DNA from: Ectocarpus siliculosus
Lineage: Eukaryota; Sar; Phaeophyceae; Ectocarpales; Ectocarpaceae
Direction of reading: 5' to 3'
NCBI GenBank assembly: GCA_000310025.1
Contig: FN649748.1
Location: 1,319,345 to 1,383,344 of the forward strand
DNA: 64,000 nt
Position 1 is the first letter of the stretch; the number at the start of each line of letters is the position of its first letter. Positions 19,735 through 55,857 of this stretch are shown piece after piece. Under the pieces are notes generated by a model. That model searched no databases and was not told where the DNA came from. It worked only from the letters and a program-made list of their open reading frames with translations. The translations under genes were made by a program, and so were the position numbers.

Positions 19735-22700
19735 ATGAACAAGTCATTCCTCTCGATGTGCGCCGGGCCGCTTCTGTTCGCCTTGGCCGTCAACGCTGCC
19801 GACTACAACGAGCCGGCCCCGACCCCATCCCCGACCTACTCGAGACCGGTCTCCAGGTACTCGGGCCCTACCCCAACATACTGGCCTGACTCCTCGGACT
19901 CCTCGGACTCCTCGGACGCCAACGCCGGTCCCAACGACGACTACACCTCGCCGGCCACGACCCCGTCCCCGACCACCGAGATCTACCCGGACTTGAATGA
20001 ATCCTACGAGGCGGAGGTGACTCCGGAGCCGGTCATGGACACCCCAGCGCCATCACCCGACATGGAGACCACGTCAGGGCCTACGGAGTACTACGTCGAG
20101 ACGACGGAGGATGGAGACATGGAGAAGGTGCCGACGTCGGACGGTGGGTCGAAGGAAGAGGAAAAAGAGGAAGAGGAACCGATCCCGATGGAGAACCCGG
20201 AGGATGGGATGTCCTGCTCCACATACGACGAGGATGTGAGTACCTGTAGACGCGGAGCATTGGCTTTCACCTGAAGACGCGGGGCACACGCTTACACCTG
20301 AAGTAAAATAATTTTTCTACTAAGTGGTATATTTTGCTGATGAACCAACATCGACCCGTTCCGGCTGGCTATGCTCACGCTGCCGACTCACTCTCAAGTG
20401 GTTTGGGTTTTGAAGACGTCAATACCCCAACCTTCTCGCTTCACAAGAGAATGGCCAAGCCCACGTTTTCGACAGCCTCCACCAACGATTCGAACCTTTC
20501 ATTATTTTCCAAAACCTAAACCCTCAGGTGGATGTGGCCACTATCCTCCCCGAGACGTGCGAATGGAACACCTACATGTGCTGCTGGACCGGCCACGACG
20601 GGTCCAAGGGCATGTACGGCAACGCCGATGTCTGCCGCGTGCTGGACTACCCCGAGGAGGGCGACGTCCTCGAACTGCCCCGTGACGATGAAGGCCCCGT
20701 CTACTGGTGCGTTGGTACCTGAGTGCTAAGGCGATGTCTGTGGCTTACAGAAATCTTCCTTCAAGGCTAAGCCACATCGAAGTAGTATTTGGCTGTTGAC
20801 AAGTACTGTATAATTTGTCTTGGCTGTTGACTGAAACGCGGAATCCTTGATTCGGTGCTGCAACATAGTTGTTCTGCTCTGCGCTGTGTTCCGGTGCTGC
20901 AACCCTGGGCGTGTGCTGGCAGCATTGCGTAGCCACCCTTGAATTTCACAGTCGTTTCCGAACAAGGGGGGGATAGGTGTAATAAGCTGACGATAGACAG
21001 CTAATCACTGCATGGCAACGGCGCCACCTCGCTCTCTTCCCCGACGTTGCTCCCGCCCCCCACCCCGCCCTCCCGTTGCGCATCGAATGGCATGTGCGCA
21101 TGTACTTGTATCGGACGAACCACAGCCACGGCTTCGCCTGGGCAGACGACGCGGACATCGACAGCCACATCCTCCCCCTGTACCACTACGTGACGAACGT
21201 GAACCGCACCGACGACGGGGGGTACTACGGAAAGTGAGCTCAAAGCATAAGTTTTCGTTCTTCTCGCAGCGGAATGGACGCCAAACGAAACAACGCAACA
21301 TCTGGTACATTCCGTAGTAGAATTGGTGGAGAAACCTGTGACCTCCTGACCGGCAAGACGATTGCTGTGCCAGCAGTGAGAACCTTGAGCTCGACGGGTT
21401 ATTCACCAGCGCTTGTTGACTGGAAAAGGCAAATACGTTGTAGTACTCGACCCCCTTGTTTCACGGCTGCCTAACTTCTATATTTCTCTGACTGTGTTAA
21501 GTGCGGCGAAGCATTGCAAGGTCGACTTGCGCGTCTACTCGAGATTACCCGTCCCGTCCCAACGACCAACAACCCTCTTCATCCCCCACCTGTGCTGGCA
21601 CTTGCAGCGTCGAGGGAGTGCCTTCGTGTGGATGTATCGAGGACATGCCGGTCGTGTCCGATGCGGCGTGCTCCAAGTGAGTTTGTTTTAACACTACTTG
21701 TACAGTAGTTCATTCGACGACTCCTGGATGGAACGTCGAACGACCCAATCTCACCCACTACTGACAGTTTTGTTAAACCGCGCATGGAACACGCATTGGT
21801 CTCCCATGGGCCGCCCATGGACACTTCCACCTAGAAATTTTCGCCACCAGCGCCAACCCTGTTCGTACGGTGTGGGCTTGGGGATAGGGTGACGGTTAGC
21901 GTTAGGGTTAGCCGCTATAGCGCCCTTTCCAAAGCAGACAAACTATTGTTTAGGAGTACGCTGGTTCGGTTGAAGGGCTCTCATTGGCCGCCATGGGCAC
22001 GCTCATGATGGGCTGCATGTCCATGGGTGACCCACGGGCTGCCCACGGGCCTAAACGGGGCGCCCATAGGCGGCCCATGAAGGGCCCATGGGTGACCCAT
22101 GGGAGTCTTATGGGTCGGTTGGGGAAGCTGTAGAATTGTGGGAGACCCGAACGACCCTACGCGTCGAGCATCAACGCCACCATGGTGCACGTGTAGTGTG
22201 CTTTCGAGTTTGGAGACGCTTCTTGTTGGCCTTGATTTTCGTATACGAACATGTGCTCGTGAAACAACCTCACAGGAAGGACCGTGCATGGGCCACTGTT
22301 GTTTATTGTTGTGCCCTTCGTGCGGGGGCAGCCGTTTTGAAGGTTGATAGTTCACAGGAGATAGTTGGTGTCATCAGTTTCGTTTCTCTCTCTAGAAAGC
22401 TTGGGCAAAACCTTTTTGTGTCACACTGCCATGTGAACGGATAGTCAAAGTCCCCCCCACCCTACGGGCTCCAATCCATATCCGACCCCCCCGAAAATCA
22501 GGTTCGGAGGCGAAGGGATCGAGCCTTGCTGGGACAACAGTCTTCGTTCCCAGTACAAGTACAAGCTGGACGAACCGAAGGGCGAGATGGAATACAACCT
22601 GGTCAGAGAGTGCGACAACGAGGATGTGCCCGACTACGACTTCCGCACCTGCAACCACAACACGTACATGTGCTGCTGGACGGAGAACGACGGCCAGGGG

Positions 22701-23571
22701 ATGGCCGACAACACGGTGAGATGCGGTGTTGGCCCTGCCTCATGATTCAACCCACTGGATAGCGATGCGTCATGTCGAGACCGGTCCTTGTTTCTGTGTG
22801 AACAATTTCTATCGTCGCAAGCTCGGTGTGCTCGCGAAAGCACTTACACGGTTGCTGTCGCCGAGGCTCTTATCACGAAAAAACACCTGTATTGAATACC
22901 AAAAACTGCTATTCACGTGTTGAACATCGTCTGCGTCAGGTCACCGTTAACGACCCCCGACCTTCTGTGATTCTATGATTGAACCAACGATGTAGGATGT
23001 GTGCCGAGTGATCGACTACCCGTCGATGGGCGAGACCACCGAGTACCCTGGAGAGAGCGAGGGAGAGGTGCACTGCCACGGGTTTGTGTGGCCGGAGGAC
23101 GCCACCGACAAGTACATCCACCTCCTGGCGCAGTTCGTGCAGCACTTCGACCACAGGGACAGGCGGGGCTACTTCGGAAAGTGAGCCTGGCTATTGTTGT
23201 GTGTCCTCGCGCTCTAAAAGGGGGGGAGGGGTATAGGGCAATCTGTTGTGCCCCACGGTACATTTCGCAACCTTTTGCTTTATCTTGGATGGCGCTCAAA
23301 TGTTCCCTATCACTGGCATTAACACCCCTGCCCTCCCTGACGTCATTGATTCCCCCTGCCGTTCAGCATCGAGGGTGCCCCCATGTGTGGCTGCATCGAG
23401 GAAATGCCGCAGGTTTCCGAGGCCGACTGCACGACGTACGACAACGAGCCGGGCCGAGAGGGCAAGTTCACGGCGTGCACCAACAACGACCTTCGCACCC
23501 GTTACGAAGAGGAGTACCCCATGGGCGAGCTTGACAACCTGGTCGGCGAGTGCGACAACGCGGAGGCTTGA
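19735..23571 (+). CDS. Array copy A: secreted acidic Cys-rich protein with duplicated module, 7 exons
   Basis: Exons 19735-20235, 20528-20706, 21126-21233, 21608-21676, 22502-22715, 22996-23180 and 23367-23571 join in phase to 486 residues. The N-terminus (MNKSFLSMCAGPLLFALAVNA) is a clear signal peptide. Residues about 23-160 are Pro/Thr/Ser- and Glu/Asp-rich (TPSPT, SSDSSDSSD, KEEEKEEEE). Two homologous Cys-rich modules follow. Module 1 has TCEWNTYMCCWTGHDG, DVCRVLDYP, CHGFAWADDADID, NRTDDGGYYG, VEGVPSCGCIEDMP. Module 2 has TCNHNTYMCCWTENDG, DVCRVIDYP, CHGFVWPEDA, RRGYFG, IEGAPMCGCIEEMP. Each module has eight aligned Cys plus two in a linker or tail (LRSQY...REC against LRTRY...GEC). An N-glycosylation sequon (NRT) lies in module 1. 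Likely secreted or wall-associated; function unknown. Compared with B and C it has a 43-residue insertion after the signal peptide. Confidence 0.85.
21747..22147. mobile_element. 401-bp insertion in intron 4 of copy A with 10-bp target duplication
   Basis: Intron 4 of A is about 390 bp longer than in B and C. The extra sequence is bounded by the 10-mer CGAACGACCC at 21737-21746 and again at 22148-22157, present once in B and C, as expected of a target-site duplication. The ends (TCTCACCCAC and, reversed, TCTCCCAC) may be short inverted repeats. The inside is non-coding and packed with CCCATGG/GGCCCATGG palindromes. A MITE-like insertion fits; the superfamily is unclear. Confidence 0.65.
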
Positions 23572-25349: not shown

Positions 25350-27296
25350 ACGGCAGCACGACTAGTAGATGGCCTTCTCCTCCCTTAGAAACACTGTCAT
25401 ATTTGCACAGTATCCGAGTCCGGGTGTGTCCAGGAGACCACAGACATGCAGAGCAGACGATAGACCGAGGAGCGAGCCTCCCGGCGTTGAGTTAGAGAAA
25501 CGGGTCGCCAAAGCAGCTCTCGGTCGAGAGGGGGCATGGCAAAAAAGGGCGGAACAATACAATATTCTTGCTGTCAAGACATACTGTAGGTGCACATGGA
25601 TACAGATCGGTCTGCTTCTTGTGCATATCTACATGTACCTCCAGCTAAGCCTGTTCTTCGTTGCCGCAGCGTTGTCTGCAGCCGGCTTCAGCACGGCGTC
25701 CATTTTGCTGCTACCCGTGCTAACGGTGCTGTTTGCCAACAGCTCTCTCACATTTCTGTTCTGATACCCACCAAGAACAGGTACGCTATGGTTGTACAAG
25801 CACATCGCCCAAAGATGTCCCGTTGGGAAAGGCTTCTGTTCTGAAACTACAGCAGTCTTGTACATCCAATGCCATGTGCTTGTATCTGACGAGTCTGACG
25901 GGTGTACTACTGGGCACCGAGTGAGTAACAGTGCATTCTTGTGAAGAGAGCATTGGCGTCTTTGTGTGTATCTACTGTATCTGCTGTTGTGTTGGACAGC
26001 AGCCGTTGTGTAAGCTATGTACACGTATTTTATGTGCATGTGTTTTTTTTTGCGCCGAGAAAGGATTCAATCCGAATCTTCCTTTCTCATAGAGGGGCAA
26101 CCGACCTTCGTTGGATCTTAGACCCAAGGGTAACGGTCGTGTTTCACGCCGCTTGCTTGAGACAATCAACTCGCACCCACACCCACCCACCCATCATTCA
26201 CTTGCTCTCCTCTCATCCTCCCACCTTAGATACCATCACGTCTTCACGGCCATTGAGCAGTTTCTACAACAGTTTCGGGACGGCCGGAGAAATCGGTGAG
26301 CATGACCCGACGCGTTATTGTTACCGAGCGAGGTCGTGCCTCTCCGACATCTGTGCGAACGCACTATTGTTCTCACCGCCGTGTGTACCGCGAACGTTTA
26401 CAATTCAATGCATTGCAGAGCGGCATCTCGACGGGTCTCGGTACATGACAGGATGGGTTTAGCTACTACTGCAACCCGCTCCAGGCATCAATGTAGAGAT
26501 TGCCACTTTTTTGAGTATATACAAAATACAATGAAAAATTGTATGCATGTCATGATTACGTCCATCCGGCACCTGTGACAAACCCAACAGTTAATTGTAC
26601 CGGGGAGACGGCCAAGGATTTTTCGATCTCTTTGTCCCTGTGATACCCCGTGATATGTTCTCTGTCATGGTCGAAACGTGTTTCGTTGGAGTGGAACTGA
26701 AAAGGTCGACCTGTCGGCCACTCTTCACGCCAAACACGCCCGCCACGAAAATCTGGCAGTGTTCGGGCAGCATTTTTTTTTGGAACGCCTGTGTTGCTTT
26801 GTATATCTGAAAGTACAGGCGATGTGTAATTTTGAGCACGAAAGGGTAGTAGACACAAGATATATGTACTCTAATACGGGCCAGCGCACCGGACTTTTGA
26901 CGTGAAATTTTCTGATTTCGGATCGTTTTCATTAAATAGGGCGGATGAAGTTGTGCACCCCGTGACGGGTAGCGTAGACACTTTTGTATGGTACCATTTG
27001 TTCGCATGAACGCCGTATGTCCGAGAGCATGTGTGTGAACGATGGAATGTGGGCCGCCATGCACCGAGGCCCCCGCCTGTTAATTCACGTGCTCCCACGC
27101 GCACCTTCCCAGGCTACATCCGCGGCGCTTGTACTTATATTTGTGTTCCTACATAACGGCGACCACGAAAACGCAGGGACTCTTGCTGACACCGTTGCAA
27201 ACAACTAATCATGAATTGTTTCAATCGTTCTTCTAATGATAAATAGTTCCTCTATCCCCTCCTCTGCCTCCACCCGACCAACACAGACATTCCAAG
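25350..27296. repeat. 5' flank of array unit B
   Basis: Matches the flank of unit C in two separated pieces: about 31800-32500 before the retroelement and 39014-40409 after it. For example CCAACAGCTCTCTCAC at 25736 resembles 32258, and CTGGGCACCGAGTGAGTAAC at 25911 matches 39125. No gene supported. Confidence 0.65.
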
Positions 27297-30200
27297 ATGA
27301 ACAAGTCGGTCCTCTCGATGTGTGCCGGGCCGCTTCTGCTCGCTCTGGCTGCCAAGGCCGGTCCCAATGACGACTACAACCCGCCTGCCACGACCCCGTC
27401 GCCGACCACCGAGATCTACCCCGACTTGGGCGAATACTACGAGGCTGAGGTGACCCCGGAGCCGGTCGTGGACACCCCAGCGCCCTCACCCGACATGGAG
27501 ACCACGTCAGGGCCTACGGAGTACTACGTCGAGACGACGGAGGATGGAGACATGGAGAAGATGCCGATGTCGGACGGTGGGTCGGAGAAAGAGGAAGAGG
27601 AGGAAGAGGAACCGATCCCGATGGAGAACCCGGAGGACGGGATGTCCTGCTCCACATACGACGAGGATGTGAGACCCTTGTGGACACGGGGCAGCTCAAG
27701 CTTGCTTTCCTCACGCTGCGGACTCACTCTCACGCGCTTTTTCTAGTTTTGAAGACGTCAACACCCCAACCTTCTCGCTTCACATACGAATGACCACGCC
27801 CACGATTTCGACAGCCTCAACCAACGATTGGAACCTTTCCTTCTTTTTCAAAACCTAAACCCTCAGGTGGATGTGGCCAATATCCTCCCCGAGACTTGCG
27901 AATGGAACACCTACATGTGCTGCTGGACCGGCCACGACGGGTCCGGGGGCATGTACGGCAACACCGATGTCTGCCGCGTGCTGGACTACCCTGAGGAGGG
28001 CGACGTCCTCGAACTGCCCCGCGATGATGAAGGCCCCGTCTACTGGTGGGTTGGTGTCCCGAGATCATCTGAGATACCGTGATGTTGCTTAGTCGTTGTC
28101 CGTGCCCTGCAGCGCATTCGTTGAAGGCGTAGGAACATCGAACTATTTGGTCGTGACTGTTGACTAAGAAACGTAAGCTTGATCGGGGCTCAGGTATCTA
28201 ATGGTGCCGACCGCAAGCCGACCACGACGTGGCAATGGCGGCACCTCATTAACGTCGTTCTTCCCGACCCTTCGCCCCCGCCCGCCAACCCTCTCGTGCG
28301 CATGTAATTGTATCCGATCAATCACAGCCACGGCTTTGCTTGGGCGGACGGCGCGGACATCGACAGCCACATCCTCCCGCTGTACCACTACGTGACGAAC
28401 GTGAACCGCACCGACGAAGGGGGGTACTACGGAAAGTGAGCTCATAGCACTAGCATAGGTTTTCGCGTTCGTCTCGCAGCGGTAACGGTATGAACGCCAC
28501 ACAAAACAACGCATCATCTGGTACATACATTGGTATATTTGGCGGGAACACTTGTGGCCTACTAAGTGGGTAGGCGACTCCTGTGCAGTGTGCGTACTAT
28601 TATTGCATTTTTTCAGCAGTGAGAACCTTCTGGTCGACAGATTATTCGCCGACGCTGGTTGTTTCGAGTGGCAATAATACTCGGCCCCCTTGTTTCACGG
28701 ATGCCAATCTCCTTCATTTCTCTGACAGTGTTAACCGCCTCGAAGTCTTGCAACGTCGACTTGCGCGTCTACTCGAGATTGCCCGTCCCGTCCCAACGAC
28801 CACCAAACCCTCTTCACCCCCCACCTATTCTGGCACTTGCAGCGTCGAGGGAGTGCCTTCGTGTGGATGTATCGAGGACATGCCGGTCGTGTCCGACGCG
28901 GCGTGCTCGAGGTGAGTTTCTTAGTTATGCACATCTTTTCACCCGTTTCGTTCGGCGACTCCTGGATAGAAAGTCGAACGACCCGACCTCGAGCATCTTC
29001 GCCACCACGGCGCACCTGTGGTGTGTTTCGAGTTTCGAGACGCTTCTCGTTGACCTTGATTTCATTTTCGTATTCGAACGCGTGCTCGTGAAACAACCCA
29101 GAGGAAGGACCGTGCCTGCATGGGCCGCTGTGTTTGTGTTCCTGCCTTTCGTATGTCGCATTGTTGTAACTTGATGGGTTCAGACTACAGAGAGAGGTAG
29201 ATGTTGGTGTCATCAGTTTCGTTTTTCTTTCTAGCAACATTGCACAGACCTTTGTTGTCTAAAAACGTCATATGAGCGTATGATCAAAGTTGCTTGTGCC
29301 CTCCCCCCTCCCGCTTCAATCCACATCTGACCCCCCCGATAACTCAGGTTCGGACGCGAAGGTATCGAGCCGTGCGGGGCCAACAGTCTTCGTTCCCACT
29401 ACAAGAACAGGCTGGACGAGCCGAAGGGCGAGTTGGAATACAATCTCGTCAGAGAGTGCGACAACGAGGACGTGCCCGACTACGACTTCCGCACCTGCAG
29501 CCACAACACGTACATGTGCTGCTGGACGGAGAACGACGGTCAGGGGATGGCCGACAACACGGTGAGATGCGGTGTTGACCCTGCCTCTTCAATCAACATG
29601 CTGGAGAGCGATGCCTCATTTCGAGACTGGTCCTTGTTTCTGTGCAAACAAATTATGTTGGTCGTCGCAAGCTCCGTGTTCTTTCGAACGCGTTTATATG
29701 GTTGCTGTCGTTTAGGCTATACCGCGAAACACCTGTCTTGGCTAGAAAAAACGGTCATGCACGTGTTGAACGCTGTTTGCGTCAGGTCACCGTTAACGAC
29801 CCCCGACGTGATGTGATTCCATTATCTTACCCAACGATGCAGGATGTGTGCCGAGTGATCGACTACCCGTCGATGGGCGAGACCACCGAGTACCCCGGAG
29901 AGAGCGAGGGAGAGGTGCACTGCCACGGGTTTGTGTGGCCGGAGGACGCCACCGACAAGTACATCCACCTCCTGGCGCAGTTCGTGCAGCACTTCGACCA
30001 CAGGGACAGGCGGGGCTACTTCGGAAAGTGAGTCTGGCTTGAGTACCTATCCTGGCTCCCTATGTTTTGATATTTGTTCCCGACCTTTTGTTTTATGTTG
30101 CATGGCGCTCATTTTTCTCTTTCCTTCTCACTCGCATTCACACCCCTGTCCCTTCCTCCGGTTCATTTAATTCCGCCTGCCGTTCAGCATCGAGGGTGCG

Positions 30201-30392
30201 CCCATGTGCGGCTGCATCGAGGAAATGCCACAGGTTTCCGAGGCCGACTGCACGACATACGACAACGAGCCGGGCCGAGAGGGCAAGTTCACGGCGTGCA
30301 CCAAAAACGACCTTCGCACCCGTTACGAAGAGGAGTACCCTATGGGCGAGCTTGACAACCTTGTCGGAGAGTGCGACAACGCGGAGGCTTGA
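27297..30392 (+). CDS. Array copy B: secreted acidic Cys-rich protein with duplicated module, 7 exons
   Basis: Exons 27297-27668, 27867-28045, 28328-28435, 28843-28911, 29348-29561, 29843-30027 and 30188-30392 give 443 residues. Exons 2-7 have exactly the lengths seen in copy A (179, 108, 69, 214, 185, 205). Signal peptide MNKSVLSMCAGPLLLALAAKA, then a shorter acidic Pro/Thr region with a Glu run, then the two Cys modules. In the linker the Cys-Trp pair of A (EPCWDN) is EPCGAN. All splice sites are GT-AG. Coding and intron sequence are nearly identical to copy C, which points to recent duplication or gene conversion. Exons are GC-rich relative to the flanks. It looks intact; function unknown. 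Confidence 0.86.
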
Positions 30393-32500
30393 TTGTAACA
30401 CCGGCATGGTCTTGGCCTGCTGTTTTTTTGCCTTTACGATCACATCCGACAGACGACACTTCCTATATTGCTGTCGTACGGCATCTAGATGACGGGGTGA
30501 CTCCCATTTGCCATTTGCGGGAAACTCGCGGAACATGTTATATTTTTTACATCAGTCCCATTCCTAGGTTGTAGATTCGCTCGTTTCACCGTGTGCACGT
30601 ATGCTTTGATGTATATATAAGCTCGAACTTCTTTTCGACGCCAAGTATTTTATTTGTAGGCACGGTCCATTTGTTGGTGGCCGAATCTTTATACGTAATT
30701 TTCTCGTGGAGTTTAGGCTATCGGCACAATAATGATCCATGTTTGCGTTGATCGAACCGTGTTACGAACCGGACTCCTGGGTTTGGTGCGGGGATTGGGT
30801 TTCGAGATGCCGAGGTCTCTTCTTTTAATTGCCCTCACGTGGTGCATTGATTAGATTTTGGCGTCATTTCATCACGCATGTATAAACTAATATGCGCTGG
30901 AGGCTATGTCAAACAGTATTCATGCCTCTCTTGTTGTATTCATTTGTTACTCTTGTTTGTTGGCCATGGAAATCCCTTGTGCGTTGGGCTGCGGTAGTGA
31001 GCCGGCGCGATGCAGCCGTGCTGTTGCTGCATTTCGGTATTGTTGAGAACTGCAGAGAGTGGATGACGTGTGTGGTATTAGAATCCTTCACAGGTGATCT
31101 GTTGGGCTAATTTTGATGCGAAACGCACAAGAATTTTTGGTCAAGAGAGATTCGACAGCGCAGGCTACTACGTTCCACCATCTGATTGAACTCTGTTGAA
31201 GGCAAACCGCTCACGTCTCTTGATCGACGTCAGCCTCGTTGGGTAGTCTAGACTTCGGTAGGCCATGACGAATTCATTGCAGCGGCGGGCGGTCGTCCGT
31301 ATAGACTACAACGAATGCGCGGGCAACTTATCGTCATTTTGAAAAGAGGATGAAGATGTTGGCGTCCAACGGAGTATCGGTGATGCACTGCTGTCATGTA
31401 CGAACCAGTTTACACCACATGCGGTACCCAATGACATATGGACGAAGGAAATCTAATGAAAATTCACTGAGTGAATGACCATCGCGTCTTTGGTGACGCT
31501 TTTCTCGGGGACGATCTCTGCCGTGCAAACCGCGCTATCATTGTTTGATTCGTTTGAGAAAAGGAATTTTCGGTCATCCCCTATGTGGAGGAAGAGGCAT
31601 TCACTGGGAAAGGCTTGCAACACATATCGACACAAACTTTTGAGATGGGTAACGCTCACCGTAAAGTCCGCATGGCTGCATACAACATCACCAACCAGCA
31701 GTGGTTTGCCTTTGCGGTCTTGGTATTTTCCCAAGGAACAGCGCTGCTCATTCTCCCAATACACCAGGTAGTCCACGGTAGACTCCATTTCGGTCAGTCC
31801 TGAAGAAAATTCCCGTGTGCAAGTAGCATTACAGAGACAGGCCGTGCAGACTCTGACGTGGAGGTGTAGAGAGTCGGGCGGCCGAAGCAAGCAGCTCTAG
31901 GGCGAAATATGAAGTGTATGTGTGTGTGCTCGTCCCGTCTATTCTGGCGCCGGGGTACAGGCCTTCCGGCGAAAATTCGCGACGTATCAGCCGGGGTCAT
32001 ACAACAAGAGGAAGAGGATAAGGCACTTGGTCAACATGGAGCATTTTTCATTGGGCGGGACAACAATGAAGAAGTACTCGCCGTGCATGGACGCAGATCG
32101 TTCTGTTAATCTGCGTATCTGTAGTACCTCAAGCTACTACAGCAGTAGAAACTACGCCGTTCGTCGTTGCCACGTCTCAGTGTTGTAGATACTTCGGTGC
32201 AAGCATGTGGCCCGCTTCAGAACCGCTGATTGTAAGGTACCCATTTTGCCATTTGTCAACAGCTCTCTCACAATCTGTTCTGATACCCAAGGTATGTGCG
32301 TACCTAAATGGACGGCCGCGTCTACTGCTGTAGTCTGTAGATACTGTAAATGTAGGTTGTAGACGGGGCTGTTGAAGACAGATGCATCTACTTTCTACAA
32401 GAACGTACTCGAACGTTGAAAGAAGCACCGCCGAGAGATTTTCCCGTTGCAGAAAATGATTTCAAGTACGAAAGTTGTTATTTCACAAACGGTAAAACAG
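30393..32500. repeat. 3' flank of unit B running into the 5' flank of unit C
   Basis: The first part matches the region after copy C (GCCAAGTATTTTA, CCTTCACAGGTGATCTG). The part after about 31800 matches the region before copy B. No gene supported. It ends abruptly at the retroelement inserted at 32501. Confidence 0.65.
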
Positions 32501-32761
32501 GAAGGTTTGTTCGTCGAAGCAGATAGAATAAACTGGTGTTTATTTTGTAACAGTCGAATTAGAATTTGGCTTCATTTTCTACCGGAAACCCAGGGTCACG
32601 GTGTTTGGAATTATTAGTCTATAGTTGGGGGTGTCATTCCGTGATCGAGTCCACGCAGGGGCTGTAGCAAAGTCGGGTAACGTGTGACAGCTACAGAGCG
32701 CGTGAAGCAACGGAAGGACAGCAGCAGCCGCCTAACGCAGTAGCGGCGGCAGTTTAGAAAA
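32501..32761 (+). repeat. Split direct repeat A1
   Basis: Left-terminal repeat of the element, starting GAAGGTTTGTTCGTCG and ending GGCGGCAGTTTAGAAAA. It matches A2 at 38447-38707 over its full 261 bp. Confidence 0.9.
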
Positions 32762-32817
32762 GGGCGGGACGGGACACGGCGCAAGCATTGGGGAAGTGAC
32801 CAGCACGCGACTCTCCA

Positions 32818-32823
32818 TATAAA
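32818..32823 (+). promoter_or_regulatory. Candidate TATA box of the retroelement
   Basis: TATAAA lies 57 bp after the end of A1 in CCATATAAAGG, a plausible internal start for the element's transcript. Based on motif and position only. Confidence 0.35.
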
Positions 32824-33000
32824 GGTGTGTACTCGTGTCCAACATCCATCGTGTCGGCCGTGTTCCTATTCGCGTCCCGCTACTCTTGTGACCTCACCGC
32901 TGCGTGCATTTAGCACGAGGGGGGAGGGTGCAGTAAGATAAGCGGCGGCAAGCCAACGCAGTCTCGCTCGCCGCGCCGCTCAGATAGGTCCCTTCCCAAA

Positions 33001-33092
33001 CATGGGATGCGGTTCATCCCAACCGAGACGTACTCTCGCTGAAGAAAAAAAATGCGGTTCGTCCCAACCAGACGTACTCTCTCTGAAGAAAA
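33001..33092. repeat. Two-unit tandem repeat of about 45 bp
   Basis: ATGCGGTTCATCCCAACC...CGTACTCTCGCTGAAGAAAAAA is followed at once by ATGCGGTTCGTCCCAACC...CGTACTCTCTCTGAAGAAAAAA. It lies in the 5' interior of the DIRS-type element. Confidence 0.8.
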
Positions 33093-35665: not shown

Positions 35666-35968
35666 CGAATCCAAGAAAATATATATATAAAAAAAAAAAA
35701 AAAGAGAAACCATCGCTAGTGTTCCAAAGAGAGAAATATTCGGGATTGGTCGACGTCCGGTGACCGTAGCGTCAGCAGCAATAATCACTCCATTCAATCC
35801 ACAGGCGTCGAGAATGAACTAACGCGAGCTCGCGATATAACAACGCGTCGTTCTGGGCCCGACGAAAACCCACGTCAGATAGTTTCGCCCGAAGATAGGA
35901 TTTGTAGACCATTCTAACTGCAGATCCAGGCGCGCGATCGACTACGCCCACGATGAAGAGGAAAAGAA

Positions 35969-36916
35969 GTGTTCCCGCAACGCCGCCCTGACGCTCGCCC
36001 GCCGCCTGCCGCCGGTCCGCTGCTTATACGACTCCAACCGCGACCAGATGCCGACACGGGCCTCCACGCGGAGCGGCAGGGCAGCGGCTGGGCAAGCAGG
36101 GCGAGGTCGGGCGGCGACACCTTCGACACCACGCACGAGAGGTCTACCGCGCGATCGGTGGCGAGCTCGACGGCTCGCCCCTCGACGCGCAGCGGATCAC
36201 GTACTCCCGCGAGGCGTCGAGCGGTATCCTCCTCGCGAGCGCCAGGGACAGGCACCCGCGGCGACCCCCCCGCTGATGAGACTGAGCTCGCTTCTCTCCG
36301 CGGGCTGGTGGACGGCCTGAGGGAGGAGCTGCAGCGGAAGCGCGATGAGGCTGCCGGTGATCGCCAGCAGCTTCAAGCAACGATCGACGACCTGATCGCC
36401 ACCCAAGCAGCAGGACCTGGCCTTCCGGGGGGGGGTGCAACTTGTGGGCACAACCGCCCCACCATCGGCCTCTCGGGCCCCCGCTACACCCAGCGCCGAG
36501 GCGGCTAAGGCTACGGCAAAGGATAGAGCGCGGATGTGGGGGGACCTCCGCCGGGTAAAAGCGTGGCTCATCCTGGGGCGGCCCCCGGCAGTTTCAAAAC
36601 TGTCGCAGATGGAGTGGCAATCCTTGCTTCGCAAAGGCGTCCTGGTGACAGAGAAAGTGGCGGCATCGCTCGACACGCTCGTGGTTACTGCTTCGCCTTC
36701 AACTCGTCGTCCGGTTGCCATGATCGTAACTGCCCACACATCCACGCCCAGAACCCTTCCCACGCTAGGCGCGGAGCGTCCGAAACTCCGGCAACCGGCG
36801 CGCGCGGCGTTGGCCACGGCAACGGGGGAGGGCGCGGAGGAGAGGCGCGCGCCGCTGGCGAGGGCGGCGCGAGACCCAAGGCCGATGGCTTCTTCACCCA
36901 CGGGAAAGACAAATAG
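35969..36916 (+). pseudogene. Decayed gag-like ORF with CCCH-type zinc finger
   Basis: Coding sense moves between two frames: 35969 to about 36434 (ends with a Glu/Arg-rich coiled coil, LRGLVDGLREELQRKRDE), about 36435 to 36690 (MWGDLRRVKAWLILGR...WQSLLRKGVLVTEKV), then back to the first frame with GYCFAFNSSSGCHDRNCPHIH, a Cys/His finger of the kind found in gag of DIRS-type elements. The first switch sits at a G9 run at 36428-36436, which is also a likely site for a base-call error. Probable nucleocapsid-like protein. Confidence 0.6.
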
Positions 36917-37009
36917 GGGTGCGGGCTCTCCCGCGTAGCGGGGGGGCCTACCTCGGATGGCAGCGCACCTGCGGCTAAATCGAACGGCAGCACGCCGGTC
37001 TACACGAGG

Positions 37010-38165
37010 TTGGCTCCAGGGCTATCAGCAGGTTCAGGACCTGGGACAGGCAGGACGGGACTTTGTTACCGACGTCTTGGCATGCAGCTCGTCGAGCACT
37101 CAGTTGCGTCTTCGTCTAGAAGGACTTACACGTCAGGCTTCAACTCTTGGTGCACGTTTCGCAGGCTGACGGAGAAGCCCAAGTTCCTAGGGCAACGTGC
37201 CGGGGACCTTCATGTGTGGGAGTTGATAGACTTCGTAGCCTGGTGTTTCGAGTCTGAGGGTAATCTAGCGAGTACAATATCCGGAAAACTCACGGCTGTA
37301 CAACATTTTCATAGGCTGGAAGCTTCTGTCGAGCTAGACTTGTCGTCTCCGATGTTGAAATGTGCGCTAAGGGGGATTGCGAGGAACCACGTGGCTGTGG
37401 GGACGGTACGCCGTGTGCGCCTGCCTGTGTCTTGGCGTATGCTGCTGGACGGGGAAAGCGCAAGCCAGAACTGGGGGGAAGGGGGCAGAGTGATGTGGCT
37501 GTGTCTGTGCTTGTCCTATCTCTTTATCACACGGTCTGATGAGGTGTTCGCGAATGATGCGGGCAGGGTGCATGAGGCACACTGTCTTACGAGGGCGGAC
37601 GTAGCATTGTTTGCTGGCGAGACGCAATTAGTCTTTAGTCACTATCGTAGAGCAGACCGTGTCGAAATGAGGTTTAGAGGGCACAAGGCCGATCAAGAGC
37701 AGAAAGGAAACATACGGGTTCGTACGCGAGACGAAGTCACCGGACCGCAGTCAGGTGTGAGAGCACGCGGTGGCGCGGTGGCTCTTGTGGTGGAGCTGTT
37801 ATCGTGTCATGCGACGTTTCCCTGACTCCGCACCGTTGGCTTCGTACCGTAGTGGAAGAGCAGTGAGAGTAGTGAGGTATACTGCTGCCCTCCGTGCACT
37901 CAGAGAAGTGGTAGCGAGGTCGGGGCGTAACCCCCAGGAGTACGCGTTGCACTCGTTGCGAATTGGAGGCGCGACGGCTCTTGCATCGGGCGGAGACATC
38001 GCAGAACGAGTGATTCAGAGAGAAGGGAAGTGGAGGTCGGATGCATACAAGCCGTACGCGCGAAACAATGTAGAGGATTCGCGGCGAGTGTCACGGAAAC
38101 TTACAGACGGCAGTAGGATCGTATCGAGACAGCCGGGGGAGGGGACCGTCTGGGGGAACGGATAG
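37010..38165 (+). pseudogene. Tyrosine recombinase (YR) of the DIRS-type element, one frameshift
   Basis: The probable start is Met at 37082 (MQLVEHSVASSSRRTY). The first frame runs to a stop at 37823-37825. The second frame is open from 37770 to 38165 and continues the same protein after FPDSAPL, so a single-base shift lies near 37815-37822. The catalytic set is recognisable: Arg in LFITRSDEV, Lys in RGHKADQEQKG, His-x-x-Arg in HSLRIGGAT, then GKWRSDAYKPYAR with the Trp and the nucleophile Tyr. The enzyme would integrate the circular DNA intermediate. Fold and motifs are clear. The frameshift may be real decay or a sequencing error. Confidence 0.82.
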
Positions 38166-38206
38166 TTGACTTATTCGGTAGTCGTCCAGAAACTGACCTC
38201 GATGTG

Positions 38207-38444
38207 GGTGTTGTAGAATGGTGTGTACCATTTGAGGACTTGGTCAGTTTTGGGACTCCTGCGTTTGCAGTCGTAGTCCCCCGGCTAGTATTTGTGGGGA
38301 GAGAGATGGATTTGTAAGAGTTGACGCCGGCCTTTGCAGCTAACGCGGCCGGAGAGACGATGAGCGTTTCGTGCGTCTCTCTCCCCAACACGTAGCCTAG
38401 AAACCGAAGAAATAATGAAGCAATTCGAAAGAAAACAAAATAAA
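38207..38444 (+). repeat. Split direct repeat B1
   Basis: Starts GGTGTTGTAGAATGG, ends ACAAAATAAA, and matches B2 at 38776-39013 over 238 bp. It begins 41 bp after the recombinase stop. Confidence 0.9.
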
Positions 38445-38446
38445 AG

Positions 38447-38707
38447 GAAGGTTTGTTCGTCGAAGCAGATAGAATAAACTGGTGTTTATTTTGTAACAGT
38501 CGAATTAGAATTTGGCTTCATTTTCTACCGGAAACCCAGGGTCACGGTGTTTGGAATTATTAGTCTATAGTTGGGGGTGTCATTCCGTGATCGAGTCCAC
38601 GCAGGGGCTGTAGCAAAGTCGGGTAACGTGTGACAGCTACAGAGCGCGTGAAGCAACGGAAGGACAGCAGCAGCCGCCTAACGCAGTAGCGGCGGCAGTT
38701 TAGAAAA
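38447..38707 (+). repeat. Split direct repeat A2
   Basis: Second copy of the left-terminal repeat, joined to B1 through AGG. The B1-A2 junction should recreate the sequence formed when the element's two ends meet in a circle. Confidence 0.9.
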
Positions 38708-38775
38708 TCCCGCCCTCCCATCCCTTTTCTTTCGAAGGTGGGGGCATAAGTTCGGGAATATTCGGTATCTAGTCA

Positions 38776-39013
38776 GGTGTTGTAGAATGGTGTGTACCAT
38801 TTGAGGACTTGGTCAGTTTTGGGACTCCTGCGTTTGCAGTCGTAGTCCCCCGGCTAGTATTTGTGGGGAGAGAGATGGATTTGTAAGAGTTGACGCCGGC
38901 CTTTGCAGCTAACGCGGCCGGAGAGACGATGAGCGTTTCGTGCGTCTCTCTCCCCAACACGTAGCCTAGAAACCGAAGAAATAATGAAGCAATTCGAAAG
39001 AAAACAAAATAAA
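38776..39013 (+). repeat. Split direct repeat B2 (right end of element)
   Basis: Matches B1. Host sequence resumes at GGTATGTCC. A 68-bp spacer (38708-38775) separates A2 from B2. Confidence 0.9.
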
Positions 39014-40409
39014 GGTATGTCCTATTGTCTGGGAACCGCTTGTCTGAACTATTCGAAAGTATGCTATTTCGAAAAAAGTGACTGTTGAAGTGTTTGTATC
39101 TGGCGGATCTGATGGGCGTACCACTGGGCACCGAGTGAGTAACGGTGCATTCTTGTGAAGAGAGCATTGGCGTCATTGTGTGCTGTCGTGTTGGACAGCA
39201 GTCGTGTACGCGTATTTATGCGCCGAGATGTAATTGAAATCTGAATCTTCCTGTATTCCAGAAGCCCAACCGATCTTTGTTGGATCTTAGATCCAAGGGA
39301 AACGGCCGTATTCCACGCAGCTTGCTGACAATCAACTCCACACCAACACCCACCCATGCGTTCATTCATTCACTTGTCTCTTCTACATCATCACCTCTAC
39401 AGGGCCACAGCAGTCCCTCCAGTTCGGGAAGGCAAGAGAAATCGGTGAGCATAATCCCGATTAGCAAGAAAGGTCGCGCCCCTCCGACATCGGTGCGCAC
39501 GCACTACGTGCCTAAAACTCGTATGTACTGCTGTGTAGTTCGTGCGTGCGGCATCTCGATGGGTCTCACTACATGACAGGATTGGTTTATGTAGCTACCC
39601 CGCTCAAGGCGCCATAGAGATCGTCACTCTACGCTGTTGAGTATGTCACGTTCAGGTTCATCCGGTCATGCGGCACATGTGACAAACCCAACAGCGTAGT
39701 GTATCGTGTACATACAGCGGGGAGACTGGGAAGATTTTTTGACTCATCTCCACTGTCCCTGTGATACCTTGTGCAATAATGTTCCGGTTTCTGTTTCTGT
39801 CTCTTGTTCGGAACACGTTTCGTTAGAAGTGCTATTATAGAAAGCACAACTACCTGTCGGGCAGTCCTCACGCGTGATACGCCCCACAAGAAATACCACA
39901 AAACTGGCACATTGTTCGGCGCAGCAACACTTTGGGGAACAACGCTTCTGTGTTGCACAATAGTATCTGAAAGTGTTCAAGAGCTCGAAATAAAGGATCG
40001 GACAAAAATAGTCCTTACGGGCCAGCCCAAGCCACGGAATTCAGACTTGACTACAACAAACATCATCATCCTGATGCTTGATTTCGGATTGCTTTCAAGA
40101 AACAGTGTGTTGGAAGTCGAGCAATCGTCACGGGAAGCGTATGCATAGACTACGACATAACACTACTGCAAGAGTACAGTTCCTCGTATGTCTAAGAGCC
40201 GATACGAACGACCCAAGCTGGGCCACCATGCACCGAGGCCGTCGGCTGTGGTTTCACGAAACGCGTCCATCCGTGTACTTACGAGGGAGCGTGTCTACGT
40301 TAAGGAAGCGCTGCTGTCCCATGCGCACCTTCCCAGGCTGCATCCACGGCGCTCGCATATATTTCTGTGTTTCTAACTGCTCCCACCCGACTAACACAGA
40401 CATTCCGAG
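39014..40409. repeat. 5' flank of array unit C (right of the insertion)
   Basis: Continues the unit C flank interrupted at 32500 and aligns in order with the sequence before copy B. The CGACTAACACAGACATTCCGAG leader just before the ATG is nearly shared with B (27285), so the proximal promoter is conserved between the two. Confidence 0.7.
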
Positions 40410-43400
40410 ATGAACAAGTCGGTCCTCTCGATGTGTGCCGGGCCGCTGCTGCTCGCTCTGGCTGCCAAGGCCGGCCCCAATGACGACTACAACTCGCCTG
40501 CCACGACCCCGTCGCCGACCACCGAGATCTACCCCGACTTGGGCGAATACTACGAGGCGGAGGTGACTCCGGAGCCGGTCGTGGACACCCCGGCGCCCTC
40601 ACCCGACATGGAGACCACGTCAGGGCCTACGGAGTACTACGTCGAGACGACGGAGGACGGAGACATGGAGAAGATGCCGATGTCGGACGGTGGGTCGGAG
40701 AAAGAGGAAGAGGAAGAAGAGGAACCGATCCCGATGGAGAACCCGGAGGACGGGATGTCCTGCTCCACATACGACGAGGATGTAAGACCCTTGTGGACAC
40801 GGGGCAGCTCAAGCTTGCTTTCCTCACGCTGCGGACTCACTCTCACGTGTTTTTTTCTAGTTTTGAAGACGTCAACACGCCAATCCTGTCGCTTCACATA
40901 CGAATGACCACGCCCACGATTTCGACAGCCTCAACCAACGATTGGAACCTTTCCTTCTTTTTCAAAACCTAAACCCTCAGGTGGATGTGGCCAATATCCT
41001 CCCCGAGACTTGCGAATGGAACACCTACATGTGCTGCTGGACCGGCCACGACGGGTCCGGGGGCATGTACGGCAACACCGATGTCTGCCGCGTGCTGGAC
41101 TACCCTGAGGAGGGCGACGTCCTCGAACTGCCCCGCGACGATGAAGGCCCTGTGTACTGGTGAGTTGGTGTCCCGAGATCACCTGAGATAGCATGTTGCT
41201 TAGTCGTTGTCCGTGCCCTGCAGCGCATTCGTTGAAGGCGTAGGAACATCGAACTATTTGGTCGTGACTGTTGACTAAGACACCGAAGCTTGATCGGGGC
41301 TCAGGTATCTAATGGTGCCGACCGCAAGCCGACCACGACGTGGCAATGGCGGCACCTCATTAACGTCGTTCTTCCCGACCTTTCGCCCGCCCGCCAACCC
41401 TCTCGTGCGCATGTAATTGTATCCGATCAATCACAGCCACGGCTTCGCCTGGGCGGACGGCGCGGACATCGACAGCCACATCCTCCCGCTGTACCACTAC
41501 GTGACGAACGTGAACCGCACCGACGACGGGGGGTACTACGGAAAGTGAGCTCATAGCACTAGCATAGGTTTTCGCGTTCGTCTCGCAGCGGTAACGGTAT
41601 GAACGCCACACGAAACAACGCATCATCTGGTACATACATTGGTATATTTGGCAAAACACCTGGGGCCTCCTAAGCGGAGAGATGACTCCTGTGCAGTGTG
41701 CGTACTATTGTTGCATTTTTCCAGCAGTGAGAACCTTCTGGTCGACAGATTGTTCGACGACGCCGGTTGTTTGGAGTGGCAATAATACTCGGCCCCCTTG
41801 TCTCACGGATGCCAATCTCCTTCGTTTCTCTGACCGCGTTAACCGCCTCGAAGTCTTGCAACGTCGACTTGCGCGTCTACTCGAGGTTGCCCGTCCCGTC
41901 CCAACGACCACCAAACCATCTTCACCCCCCACCTGTTCTGGCACTTGCAGCGTCGAGGGAGTGCCTTCGTGTGGATGTATCGAGGACATGCCGGTCGTGT
42001 CCGACGCGGCGTGCTCGAGGTGAGTTTCTTAGTTTTGCACCTCTTTCCACCCGTTTCGTTCGGCGACTCCTGGATAGAAAGTCGAACGACCCGACCTCGA
42101 GCATCTTCGCCACCACGGTGCACCTGTGGTGTGTTTCGAGTTTCGAGACGCTTCTCGTTGACCTTGATTTCATTTTCGTATTCGAACGCGTGCTCGTGAA
42201 GCAACCCAGAGGAAGGACCGTGCCTGCATGGGCCGCTGTGTTTGTGTTCCTGCCTTTCGTATGTCGCATTGTTGTAACTTGATGGGTTCAGACTACAGAG
42301 AGAGGTAGATGTTGGTGTCATCAGTTTCGTTTTTCTTTCTAGCAACATTGCACAGACCTTTGTTGTCTAAAAACGCCACATGAGCGTATGATCAAAGTTG
42401 CTTGTGCCCTCCCCCCTCCCGCTTCAATCCACATCTGAACCCCCCGACAACTCAGGTTCGGACGCGAAGGTATCGAGCCGTGCGGGGCCAACAGTCTTCG
42501 TTCCCACTACAAGAACAGGCTGGACGAGCCGAAGGGCGAGTTGGAATACAATCTCGTCAGAGAGTGCGACAACGAGGACGTGCCCGACTACGACTTCCGC
42601 ACCTGCAACCACAACACGTACATGTGCTGTTGGACGGAGAACGACGGTCAGGGGATGGCCGACAACACGGTGAGATGCAGTGTTGACCCTGCCTCTTCAA
42701 TCAACATGCTGGAGAGCGATGCCTCATTTCGAGACTGGTCCTTGTTTCTGTGCAAACAAATTATGTTGGTCGTCGCAAGCTCTGTGTTCTTTCGAACGCG
42801 CTTATATGGTTGCTGTCGCTAAGGCTATACCGCGAAACACCTGTCATGGCTAGAAAAAACGGTCATGCACGTGTTGAACGCTGTTTGCGTCAGGTCACCG
42901 TTAACAACCCTCGACCTTCTGTGGTTCTATTATTTACCCCAACGATGCAGGATGTGTGTCGAGTGATCGACTACCCGTCGATGGGCGAGACCACCGAGTA
43001 CCCCGGAGAGAGCGAGGGAGAGGTGCACTGCCACGGGTTTGTGTGGCCGGAGGACGCCACCGACAAGTACATCCACCTCCTGGCGCAGTTCGTGCAGCAC
43101 TTCGACCACAGGGACAGGCGGGGCTACTTCGGAAAGTGAGTCTGGCTTGAGTACCTATCCTGGCTCCCTTTTGCTTTCATGTTTGTTCCCGACCTTTTGT
43201 TCAATGTTGCATGGCACTCATTTTTCTCTTTTCTATCCTCACTTGCGTGAGCACCCCGGTTCCTTTTCCCCGTTCACCGATTCCCCCTGCCGTTCAGCAT
43301 CGAGGGTGCGCCCATGTGCGGCTGCATCGAGGAAATGCCACAGGTTTCCGAGGCCGACTGCACGACGTACGACAACGAGCCGGGCCGAGAGGGCAAGTTC

Positions 43401-43502
43401 ACGGCGTGCACCAAAAACGACCTTCGCACCCGTTACGAAGAGGAGTACCCTATGGGCGAGCTTGACAACCTTGTCGGAGAGTGCGACAACGAGGAGGCTT
43501 GA
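40410..43502 (+). CDS. Array copy C: secreted acidic Cys-rich protein with duplicated module, 7 exons
   Basis: Exons 40410-40781, 40981-41159, 41437-41544, 41951-42019, 42456-42669, 42951-43135 and 43298-43502 give 443 residues, with the same exon lengths as B. The signal peptide is the same as in B. Few coding differences from B are visible: the linker reads FRTCNHNTY where B has FRTCSHNTY, NRTDDGG where B has NRTDEGG, and the end is DNEEA where B has DNAEA. Introns are also near-identical to B, with small indels. All splice sites are GT-AG, and exon 2 uses the best donor of the family (GTGAGT). The 5' flank is interrupted 1.4 kb upstream by the DIRS-type element, so distal regulation could differ from B. 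Function unknown. Confidence 0.86.
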
Positions 43503-45483: not shown

Positions 45484-47121
45484 ACACGATCCTGAAGAAG
45501 TTGTTGAGCAGACTGCCAACGTCGGCCCCAACTACGACTACAACTCGCCTGCCACGACCCCGGCCCCTACCACCGAAATCTACCCGAACTTGAGTGAATC
45601 CTACGAGGCGGAGGTGACTCCGGAGCCGGCCATGGGCACCCCGGCGCCCACACCCGACATTCAAACCACGTCCGGGCCTACGGAGTACTACGTCGAGACG
45701 ACGGAGGATGGAGACATGGAGAAGATGCCGATGTCGGACGATGGGTCGATGAGGAATCGACGCCGATGGAGAACCCGGAGGATGGGATGTCCTGCTCCAC
45801 ATACGACGAGAGACGTTAGAACGTCTGGACGCGGGGCATGTGATGCATACGAGTTGATTATATCTGTCGATGCGCCCAACCTTCCTTCCCTCGCGCTGCG
45901 GACTCACTTTGGCGTGTTTTGGAAGACATCAGCACGCCAATCCTGTCGCTTCACAAGAGAATGACCGAGTCCACGTTCTCCATTGCCACAACCAACGATT
46001 CCAACCTTTCCTTCCTTTTCAAAACCAAAACCTCAGGTGGATGTGGCCAATGTCCTCCCCGAGACTTGCGAATGGAACACCTACATGTGCTGCTGGACCG
46101 GCCACGACGGGTCCGAGGGCATGTACGGCAACACCGATGTCTGCCGCGTGCTGGACTACCCCGAGGAGGGCGACGTCCTCGAACTGCCCCGCGACGATGA
46201 AGGCCCTGTGTACTGGTGGGTTGGTGTCCCGAGATCACCTGTGATACCGTGATGTTGCTTAGTCGTTGTCCGTACCCTGTAGCACATTCGTTGAAGGCGT
46301 AGGGAAATGGAAGAAAAGGCGACACTTCACTCACGTCATTCTTCCCGAGGTGCACTGCCACAGGTTCGCGTGGCCGGAGGACGCCGCCGACAAGTACATC
46401 CACCTCCAGGCGCAGTTCGTGCAGCACTTCGACCACAGGGACAGGCGGGGCTACTTCGGAAAGTGAGTTGTCTCCCTGGTTTGGTTTGCGTGTCTAGGGT
46501 TCTGCCCATTCTCGTTCCCTGGGTTTGGCATGGGGTTGCTCAACTTTTTCGTTTCGCCTCGCACACAACTCCCTTTTCTCTTTTCTACCCTCACACATAT
46601 CCTTTTCCAGATACTTCACAGGCAGTGACATTGTCTGGCCGGGGCCTATATGTTTATTGTTGCTGTCTTTTGTGGTTGCGTTTGTGGTTATTCTTCTGGT
46701 TTGTTTTCCATTGCTATGATTTTTTGGCGTGTGCACCCTTTCTTGGGAAGTCGGTCTGTGACCAAGAAAGACGTCCACGCCGGTGGGGCCCGTGCGGATT
46801 TTGCAAGGTATTGAGCATAGACTGGGACGGCGTTTTTATGTGAAACGCAAGAATATGCGACAACGCCAAACGTTCTTGTCCTTTTCTCCCGTTGTTTGTG
46901 TTGCCCTACCGTTCGGCATCGAGGGTGCGCCCATGTGCGGCTGCATCGAAGAAGTGCCGCAGGTTTCCGAGGCCGACTGCACGACGTACGACAACGAGCC
47001 GGGCCGAGAGGGCAAGTTCACGGCGTGCACCACCAACAACCTTCGCACCCGTTACGAAGAGGAGTACCCCATCGGTGAGCTCAGCAACCTCGTCGGTGAG
47101 TGCGACAACGCGGAGGCTTGA
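45484..47121 (+). pseudogene. Array copy D: broken copy of the secreted Cys-rich gene
   Basis: Homology to exon 1 starts near 45516 (GGCCCCAACTACGACTACAA) without the start codon or signal peptide. A deletion in the Glu-rich stretch near 45755 shifts the frame, and the exon 1 donor region is altered (ACGAGAGACGTTAG). Exon 2 (46037-46215) is intact. Intron 2 then runs directly into the middle of exon 6 (about 46347-46462), so exons 3, 4, 5 and the first part of 6 are gone. The last exon (46917-47121) is complete, but its acceptor AG has become GG (GTTCGG|CATCGAGG, against GTTCAG in A-C). It is a decayed, internally deleted copy, unlikely to make a secreted protein. Confidence 0.85.
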
Positions 47122-47704
47122 TTTTGACACCGGCATGGCCTTGGCCTGCTCTTTGGCTTAACCACGAGATAGATATGGCGGGGGTTGATGGTTTTTGCGA
47201 TCACAACGACAGGCACTACTACCCTAGCTGCCGATCGGAGTAGGAGCTCCAGGGCTCCCATTGCGAGAACCTCGAGGCGCAAGTTTCCATTTTTACATTA
47301 GTCCCCTCCCCAAGGTTGTGGATTAATTCGCTTCCTCTTTACGTACAGCGCTAGTATGTGCTATTTTTTCGCCCCAAACTGCATGTGACGCAAAAGGGTA
47401 CACGAGCGGGCCCGAGAGTGAAAGGCAGTTCCGTATGTATTCATTTTGAAAAAGTAAAGCAGCATTTGTAGTATGAACACTTCAACAGGGGAGGGTTGAC
47501 GTCACGACTTGTTGGTGGCCAGGTCTTGCACTGTTCGCTCGCCAAGTTCAGATGATGCCCACCAGCAATTGATTCGCACCGTGTTGGGAATCGGACTCCC
47601 GTGTAGTCTGGGGTAGGGGCGACAAGGATCAGTTTTTTATTTGGATGCGAGCTTTTTCCTTGATTGCCGCTTAGTGGGTGTCATACTGTAGTTTTTTGTC
47701 ACAG
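47122..47704. repeat. 3' flank of copy D
   Basis: Diverged match to the 3' flank of C (CGCACCGTGTT...CGGACTCCCG). No gene. It joins abruptly to an exon 3 fragment. Confidence 0.55.
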
Positions 47705-47812
47705 CCACGGCTTCGCCTGGGCAGACGGCGCGGACATCGACAGCCACATCCTCCCCCTATACCACTACGTGACGAACGTGAACCGTACCGACGAAGGGGG
47801 GTACTACGGAAA
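47705..47812 (+). pseudogene. Orphan exon 3 of the Cys-rich family (fragment E)
   Basis: A perfect 108-bp exon 3 with acceptor (CACAG) and donor (GTGAGC), reading HGFAWADGADIDSHILPLY, NRTDEGGYYG. The start of intron 3 (CTCATAGCACT) follows. No exons 1-2 precede it and none follow. It is either a remnant of a fifth unit or the piece missing from D. Confidence 0.85.
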
Positions 47813-55540: not shown

Positions 55541-55857
55541 CTACCCCCCCCGGCGACCNNNNNNNNNNNNNNNNNNNNNNNNNNNNNNNNNNNNNNNNNN
55601 NNNNNNNNNNNNNNNNNNNNNNNNNNNNNNNNNNNNNNNNNNNNNNNNNNNNNNNNNNGGAGGGGGCGGTACCTTGGGGTTTTTTTGGACTGGGGGTGGC
55701 TTCCCCCGGGGGGGAAAAACAGGATTTTTTCCCCTTCTTCGGGATGTTTTGGAAAATTTTTTTTTTTTTTTTTTTTTCCCCACGGCCCTGGGGGGCCGGG
55801 GGGGCGATCCCCCGGGTATCAGCCCGGGGGACCCCCCCCCCCCCCCCCTCAACTACG
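55541..55857. other. Assembly gap (55559-55658) with low-quality borders
   Basis: 100 N flanked by stretched C, G and T homopolymers. Sequence to about 55857 should not be translated. Confidence 0.9.

Follow-up and report, generated by a model that had tools for sequence, protein, structure and literature searches.

To our knowledge, the protein part of the brown-algal coat has been much less studied than its polysaccharides. Among the proteins described, chimeric arabinogalactan protein (AGP)-like core proteins of brown algae were reportedly presented by Herve et al. in New Phytol. in 2016; in a classical AGP, Pro, Ala, Ser and Thr (PAST) make up at least 50% of the backbone. Here we describe a family of secreted-looking, cysteine (Cys)-rich proteins of Ectocarpus siliculosus, encountered as a tandem array of genes (g1, g2 and g3) in a window of 64,000 nucleotides (nt), the whole stretch of DNA that was analysed (C23:1319345-1383344; the assembly comprises 492 contigs and 189 Mb). 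Part of PMC8307928 reports AGP-type and WSC-type wall proteins in brown algae and describes the chimeric AGP-like core proteins as developmentally regulated in fucoid embryos. According to part of PMC7457493, a family with the Cys-rich EsV-1-7 motif is expanded in brown algae.

As we understand the chimeric AGP-like core proteins, they combine a signal peptide, a Pro/Thr/Ser stretch with [ASTV]P dipeptides and a folded domain, and the proteins described here are alike in these respects. Their signal peptide, a feature expected of AGPs, was recognized by inspection and hydropathy only, and the stalks encoded by six intact two-module genes contain 6-12 [ASTV]P dipeptides each, interspersed with acidic residues. 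They differ in that the stalk is acidic (38-48% PAST and 21-31% Asp/Glu in these six genes) and in that the attached module is neither WSC nor any other Pfam domain.

Wall proteins with the WSC domain (PF01822) have a Cys-rich module too, and are reported among brown-algal wall proteins in PMC8307928. In this genome, scoring of the best 150 of 244 candidates gave at least 102 WSC matches at an expectation value (E) of 0.001 or less, the last few of them under the curated cut-off. None of the 102 listed places lies on a family locus, and PF01822 had no match in g1, its modules, two further family members (L033 and L035) or 8 modules of our alignment A3. The EsV-1-7 motif (PF19114) is likewise Cys-rich and stands in tandem in this genome, which is a likeness to the family here; scoring of the best 150 of 880 candidates gave 150 matches, and 14 control genomes gave none. 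However, PF19114 had no match at E <= 10 in g1, both its modules, L033, L035 or the 8 modules of A3. The EsV-1-7 motif is 35 residues long, with a Cys/His pattern unlike that of the family module.

The tandem array and its relatives in the genome

Rebuilt from the DNA, g1, g2 and g3 are three open seven-exon reading frames, all on the + strand and all with splice phases 0,2,2,2,0,2, encoding proteins of 486, 443 and 443 residues with 22 Cys each. In every protein a signal-peptide-like start leads into an acidic Pro/Thr/Ser stalk, which is followed by two modules homologous to each other. When the modules of g1 are cut at 156 residues each and compared, 77 of 154 aligned positions are identical (50%, E = 6e-48). 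The original prediction, that secreted-looking Cys-rich proteins with an internal module duplication are encoded in tandem, is borne out. It had also given the three genes equal exon lengths, which is correct for exons 2-7 (179, 108, 69, 214, 185 and 205 nt in all three) but not for exon 1 (501 nt in g1, 372 nt in g2 and g3), and its count of seven exons probably has to be raised to eight.

The intact frame of g1 occupies window positions 19735-23571 (+). Exon 1 (19735..20235, 167 codons) encodes the signal peptide and the acidic Pro/Thr/Ser stalk. Module 1 is spread over exon 2 (20528..20706; C-x6-CCWT and DVCRV), exon 3 (21126..21233; CHGFAW to GYYG), exon 4 (21608..21676; EGVPSCGCIEDMP to ACS) and the first part of exon 5 (22502..22715), where it ends at ECDN and is followed by the C-x6-CCWT start of module 2; the latter continues through exon 6 (22996..23180; DVCRV to GYFG) and exon 7 (23367..23571; EGAPMCGCIEEMP to ECDNAEA and the stop codon). 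The coding exons of g2 (27297..30392, +) lie at 27297-27668, 27867-28045, 28328-28435, 28843-28911, 29348-29561, 29843-30027 and 30188-30392, and those of g3 (40410..43502, +) at 40410-40781, 40981-41159, 41437-41544, 41951-42019, 42456-42669, 42951-43135 and 43298-43502. At 825 nt, intron 4 of g1 (21677-22501) exceeds its counterparts in g2 and g3 (436 nt). It holds four CCCATGG words, and the extra length is apparently a small repeat insertion.

The additional exon would be a non-coding one. An AG acceptor is present 10-14 nt upstream of the ATG in all seven genes examined, and a donor of the form AATCG/GTGAGCAT (the slash marks the splice site) is conserved 0.95-1.16 kb upstream in four of the seven (g1, g2, g3 and L034). 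The full 14-base word AAATCG/GTGAGCAT occurs three times on the + strand of the window, once upstream of each array gene, so that the last bases of a probable exon of the 5' untranslated region fall at 18789..18794 for g1, 26290..26295 for g2 and 39439..39444 for g3. The acceptor and the conserved donor together make it likely that each of these genes has a non-coding 5' exon about 0.95-1.0 kb upstream. No AATCG-type donor was found within 1.3 kb upstream of L031 and L033, nor in the 1.04 kb that could be searched for L032.

While the array is present as predicted, it is only part of a larger family. Three family queries of the genome revealed at least 12 loci, distributed over contigs C23, C33 and C13; the number is a lower bound, as the queries scored the best candidates only. 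Six loci are intact two-module genes: the three array genes, L034 (C23, - strand, about 178 kb before g1), and L032 and L033 (both on C33). Three more on C33, L035, L036 and L037, have one module and three exons. L031 (C33:3860001-3869000, positions 3878-5614) is cut to the signal peptide and module 1, with an exon 7 relic directly past its stop. The two remaining loci are broken: g4, in the window, and L038 on C13, which has a stop in the signal peptide, an altered 3' end and DVY for DVC. A further, weak candidate, C20:1076931 (E 0.925), was rejected as a family member: tblastn showed no module-like sequence at this locus, the best alignment (E 7.8e-4) covering 45 residues that lack the motif Cys.

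Several observations indicate that the intact copies are maintained. First, ten models are intact, three of them inside and seven outside the window, and all 46 of their introns are bounded by GT-AG. Second, exons are more similar than introns in all seven pairs compared over aligned columns, with identities of 98.6% vs 95.0% for g2/g3, 94.7% vs 73.8% for g1/g2 and 93.0% vs 61.0% for g1/L034. Third, the ratio of nonsynonymous to synonymous substitution rates (dN/dS) is 0.04-0.33 overall in the six pairs among g1, g2, g3 and L034; by region, the stalk gives 0.04-0.31, module 1 gives 0.05-0.33 and module 2 gives 0.04-0.16, and module 2 is the lowest region in five of the six pairs, the exception being g2/g3. 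Close copies are under purifying selection. The excess of exon over intron identity and the low dN/dS also mean that the array is not due to chance, and its genes are apparently working. On these comparisons the family is real and mostly constrained.

The ten-Cys module and its history

The module, which the original prediction had described as Cys-rich with 8-10 Cys, is indeed Cys-rich and conserved, but the number is fixed: exactly ten, the same ten in all 16 modules of the intact models (broken copies were left out of this count). Two of the 22 Cys lie outside the modules: C9 belongs to the signal peptide, and C161 (g1 numbering) comes just ahead of module 1. The landmarks follow the order C-x6-CC[WY], DVC, CHG[FI]xW, [YF]xGN, GxPxCxCxExMPxVS, C, C-x4-L and CDN. 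The module extends further than the landmarks listed earlier implied, to C-x4-L ... CDN. None of the 16 modules departs from CC, CxC and CHG, and HCHGF[AV]W occurs eight times in the genome, each time within the family, with no match in the reversed control. Identity to g1 module 2 is only 49-54% for the module 1 types and the one-module type, yet they keep the ten Cys. The net charge is -19 to -24 in 13 of the 16 modules; in the remaining three, those of the one-module genes, it is -7 to -8. Fold prediction of g3 exon 6 alone, a 61-residue fraction of the module, gave one helix with a mean predicted local distance difference test score (pLDDT) of 48.8 and a predicted template modelling score (pTM) of 0.20.

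Ahead of the modules, the N-terminus is hydrophobic and is followed by mostly AxA/VxA-type sites (judged by eye and hydropathy only). No further long hydrophobic stretch was found in the seven proteins tested, the three one-module proteins being left out; past residue 30, the highest 19-residue mean is 0.26-0.74. The stalks of the window genes are 97-140 residues long, with 38-47% PAST and 24-30% Asp/Glu. The end of exon 1, SCSTYDED (g1 residues 160-167 and their equivalents), resembles the module tail ADCTTYDN and is perhaps a remnant of an earlier module.

Intron positions may provide some clues to how the module was doubled. It had been proposed that the module was duplicated together with its introns. 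A phase-2 splice after GGAAA is in fact found in both modules, but it is the sole intron position common to the modules of all intact models, and copying with all introns was therefore dropped. Module 1 has two extra introns, both phase-2, one inside the Cys codon of CHGF and one after ACS. Module 2 has one, a phase-0 intron at NT/DVC without counterpart in module 1, and the same phase-0 intron is present in the one-module genes. The 16 modules were placed in an unrooted tree, built without outgroup. A branch with 100/100 support has all seven module-1 rows on one side and the rows of module 2 and of the one-module genes on the other, and the three one-module rows form one side of another 100/100 branch; 7 of the 12 inner branches are unresolved. 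The shared intron sites and the tree lead us to read the one-module form as older, and suggest that a one-module three-exon gene was doubled, with module 1 altering its introns afterwards. Modules can also be lost, as the reduction of L031 to module 1 demonstrates, and the reverse history, in which module 1 was lost from a two-module gene, may apply instead. The tandem units arose after the internal doubling. Each stage would be traceable within one genome: a gene with one module and three exons, a gene with two modules and seven exons, and lastly the tandem array.

The original prediction had called the family unfamiliar, and the database searches agree. Pfam was searched with g1, its modules, L033 and L035 and with the 8 modules of A3, but not with g2 and g3 in full. 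No family reached its cut-off; the best E values were 0.026, where a low-complexity part of the L033 stalk matched, and 0.17, where a module did. NCBIfam (best E 0.45) and the PDB sequences (best E 0.47) gave no significant match, and a phage collection queried with g1 module 2 gave none at E <= 1. In PHROGs, L033 module 2 matched phrog_30870, of unknown function, over 53 residues (E = 8.7e-4); two of eight modules matched this family at E <= 1, and we judged the match to be probably chance. Pattern scans returned 2 and 19 matches in viral contigs, with no relative by tblastn, and 23 in prokaryote contigs, again with no relative. As DNA patterns, HCHGF[AV]W was found at 4 loci in viral and 64 in prokaryote contigs and GAPMC[GA]C at 13 loci in viral contigs. 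In six frames against the 16-module profile, these 81 loci reached at best E 0.015, compared with 1.3e-27 for a true member, and all were judged to be chance. Plasmids and E. coli genomes were left out of the outside search. The strings CHGFAW and HCHGF had no text match in the open-licence PMC literature, publication elsewhere being possible, and matching titles and abstract starts there, on brown algae, diatoms and secreted proteins, name no such family. The family is apparently unnamed, and would belong to a known kind, that of secreted Cys-rich proteins of matrix type. Its module, which looks secreted, is constrained and has no Pfam match, occurs both singly and doubled in one genome; it offers a defined domain for modelling, for searches of stramenopiles and for expression studies.

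Possible roles of the family

The roles named in the original prediction (cell wall, adhesion, defence) are candidates only. We tentatively favour, at somewhat less than an even chance, a soluble, two-headed matrix glycoprotein rich in disulfides, its stalk bearing a pair of acidic modules. For the family proteins we infer export, disulfides, glycosylation, binding and a matrix location, which might work together as follows. The signal peptide would export the protein. The Pro/Thr/Ser-rich acidic stalk, probably O-glycosylated and extended, would be seated in the polysaccharide gel, and each C-terminal module would probably be locked by five disulfides. The paired, strongly acidic modules could then act as binding or packing units for a partner, either a wall polymer via Ca2+ or another protein, and such binding would cross-link or decorate the coat. 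The one-module relatives would represent the older, single-headed form.

In favour of this reading are the signal-peptide-like start with no later hydrophobic stretch, the constancy of the ten Cys, the composition of the stalk, the acidity of the modules, the low dN/dS among close copies and the AGP-type and WSC-type proteins reported for brown-algal walls. Some observations weigh against a matrix glycoprotein of this type. The stalk resembles AGPs in composition, but its PAST content in the six two-module genes (38-48%) is below the 50% AGP level. Constraint is uneven: dN/dS of module 2 rises to 0.57-0.70 in pairs with L032, and that of the stalk to 0.51 in g1/L033 and 0.69 in L033/L032. Moreover, the stalk is replaced by 7 residues in L031 and by about 30 in the one-module genes (by eye), and is therefore not essential to the family.

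A wider proposal is that the module is an undescribed ten-Cys extracellular domain, old enough to be common to brown algae and diatoms. In brown algae it would have been doubled, fitted to a glycosylated stalk and multiplied as a matrix component with a cross-linking or signalling function, one of the proteins arriving with complex multicellularity. Presumably, some diatom predicted proteins carry CCW ... HCHGFAW ... N[VI]PGAPMCGC-E-MP, with the landmarks in the same order, which agrees with the impression in the original prediction that other stramenopiles have similar modules; the collections scanned here were viral, phage and prokaryotic and gave no relative. We consider the proposal doubtful, though quite conceivable.

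Alternatively, the proteins could be secreted defence proteins, inhibitors or antimicrobials, with tandem copies providing dose and variety. Secreted-looking Cys-rich proteins in tandem arrays, with copies gained and lost (g4 and L038 broken, L031 reduced to one module), would fit such a role, as would the faster change in L032 module 2 and in some stalks (dN/dS up to 0.70). However, the close copies, with dN/dS of 0.04-0.33, give no sign of diversifying selection, and no inhibitor or toxin family matched significantly in Pfam, NCBIfam or the PDB sequences; we regard a defence role as rather unlikely. The unchanged CC, CxC and CHG of all 16 modules could also point to metal binding or a redox function, the conserved Cys and His holding a metal instead of forming disulfides. 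This is improbable given the secretory type of the N-terminus and an even number of ten widely spaced Cys that are retained together.

A slimmer chance attaches to a secreted intercellular signal or carrier, for example an AGP-related core of the diffusible sporophyte-inducing factor of Ectocarpus. Part of PMC8307928 describes this factor, also mentioned in part of PMC7457493, as large and possibly AGP-related, and the family proteins look secreted, stalked and soluble; yet nothing links the family genes to the factor, and their PAST content lies under the classical AGP level. Finally, that the array is a relic, mostly pseudogenes or misjoined exons, is hardly credible: g4 and L038 are broken, but frames are intact at 10 of 12 loci, all 46 introns keep GT-AG, exons exceed introns in identity in 7 of 7 pairs and dN/dS is well below 1.

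A broken copy, an insertion and other window features

The fourth copy in the window, g4 (45513..47812, +), is broken and shuffled. Its pieces follow the order exon 1-like (about 45513-45812), exon 2 (46037-46215), part of exon 6 (46347-46462), exon 7 (46917-47121) and exon 3 (47705-47812), and no pieces of exons 4 or 5 were found in g4 by self-comparison of the window. Its lesions include CHRF in place of CHGF and CGG in place of CAG at the exon 7 acceptor.

The g2 and g3 units match at 92% (27264-30971 against 40377-44058). They are spaced 13.1 kb apart, compared with 7.6 kb for g1 and g2, because of a repeat-bounded insertion at 32496..39013, outside both genes. Its direct repeats lie in the order A1 (32496-32761), B1 (38207-38444), A2 (38442-38707) and B2 (38776-39013), the A and B pairs being 99.6% and 100% alike. 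We take this split-repeat layout to be that of PAT/Ngaro-type DIRS retroelements. Both groups are listed for Ectocarpus in part of PMC12477816. An open reading frame (ORF) of the insertion, at 36917-37825, looks by eye like a tyrosine recombinase, with no Pfam match at E <= 0.1, and a tandem array with a unit of about 250 bp is present at 33916-35674.

Elsewhere in the window, runs of exactly 100 N at 10555-10654 and 55559-55658 are probably both assembly gaps. An ORF on the - strand at 8367-9608 carries a UBR-box zinc finger (PF02207, E = 1e-11) and may be part of a gene for a ubiquitin ligase of the N-recognin type, as one of its exons.

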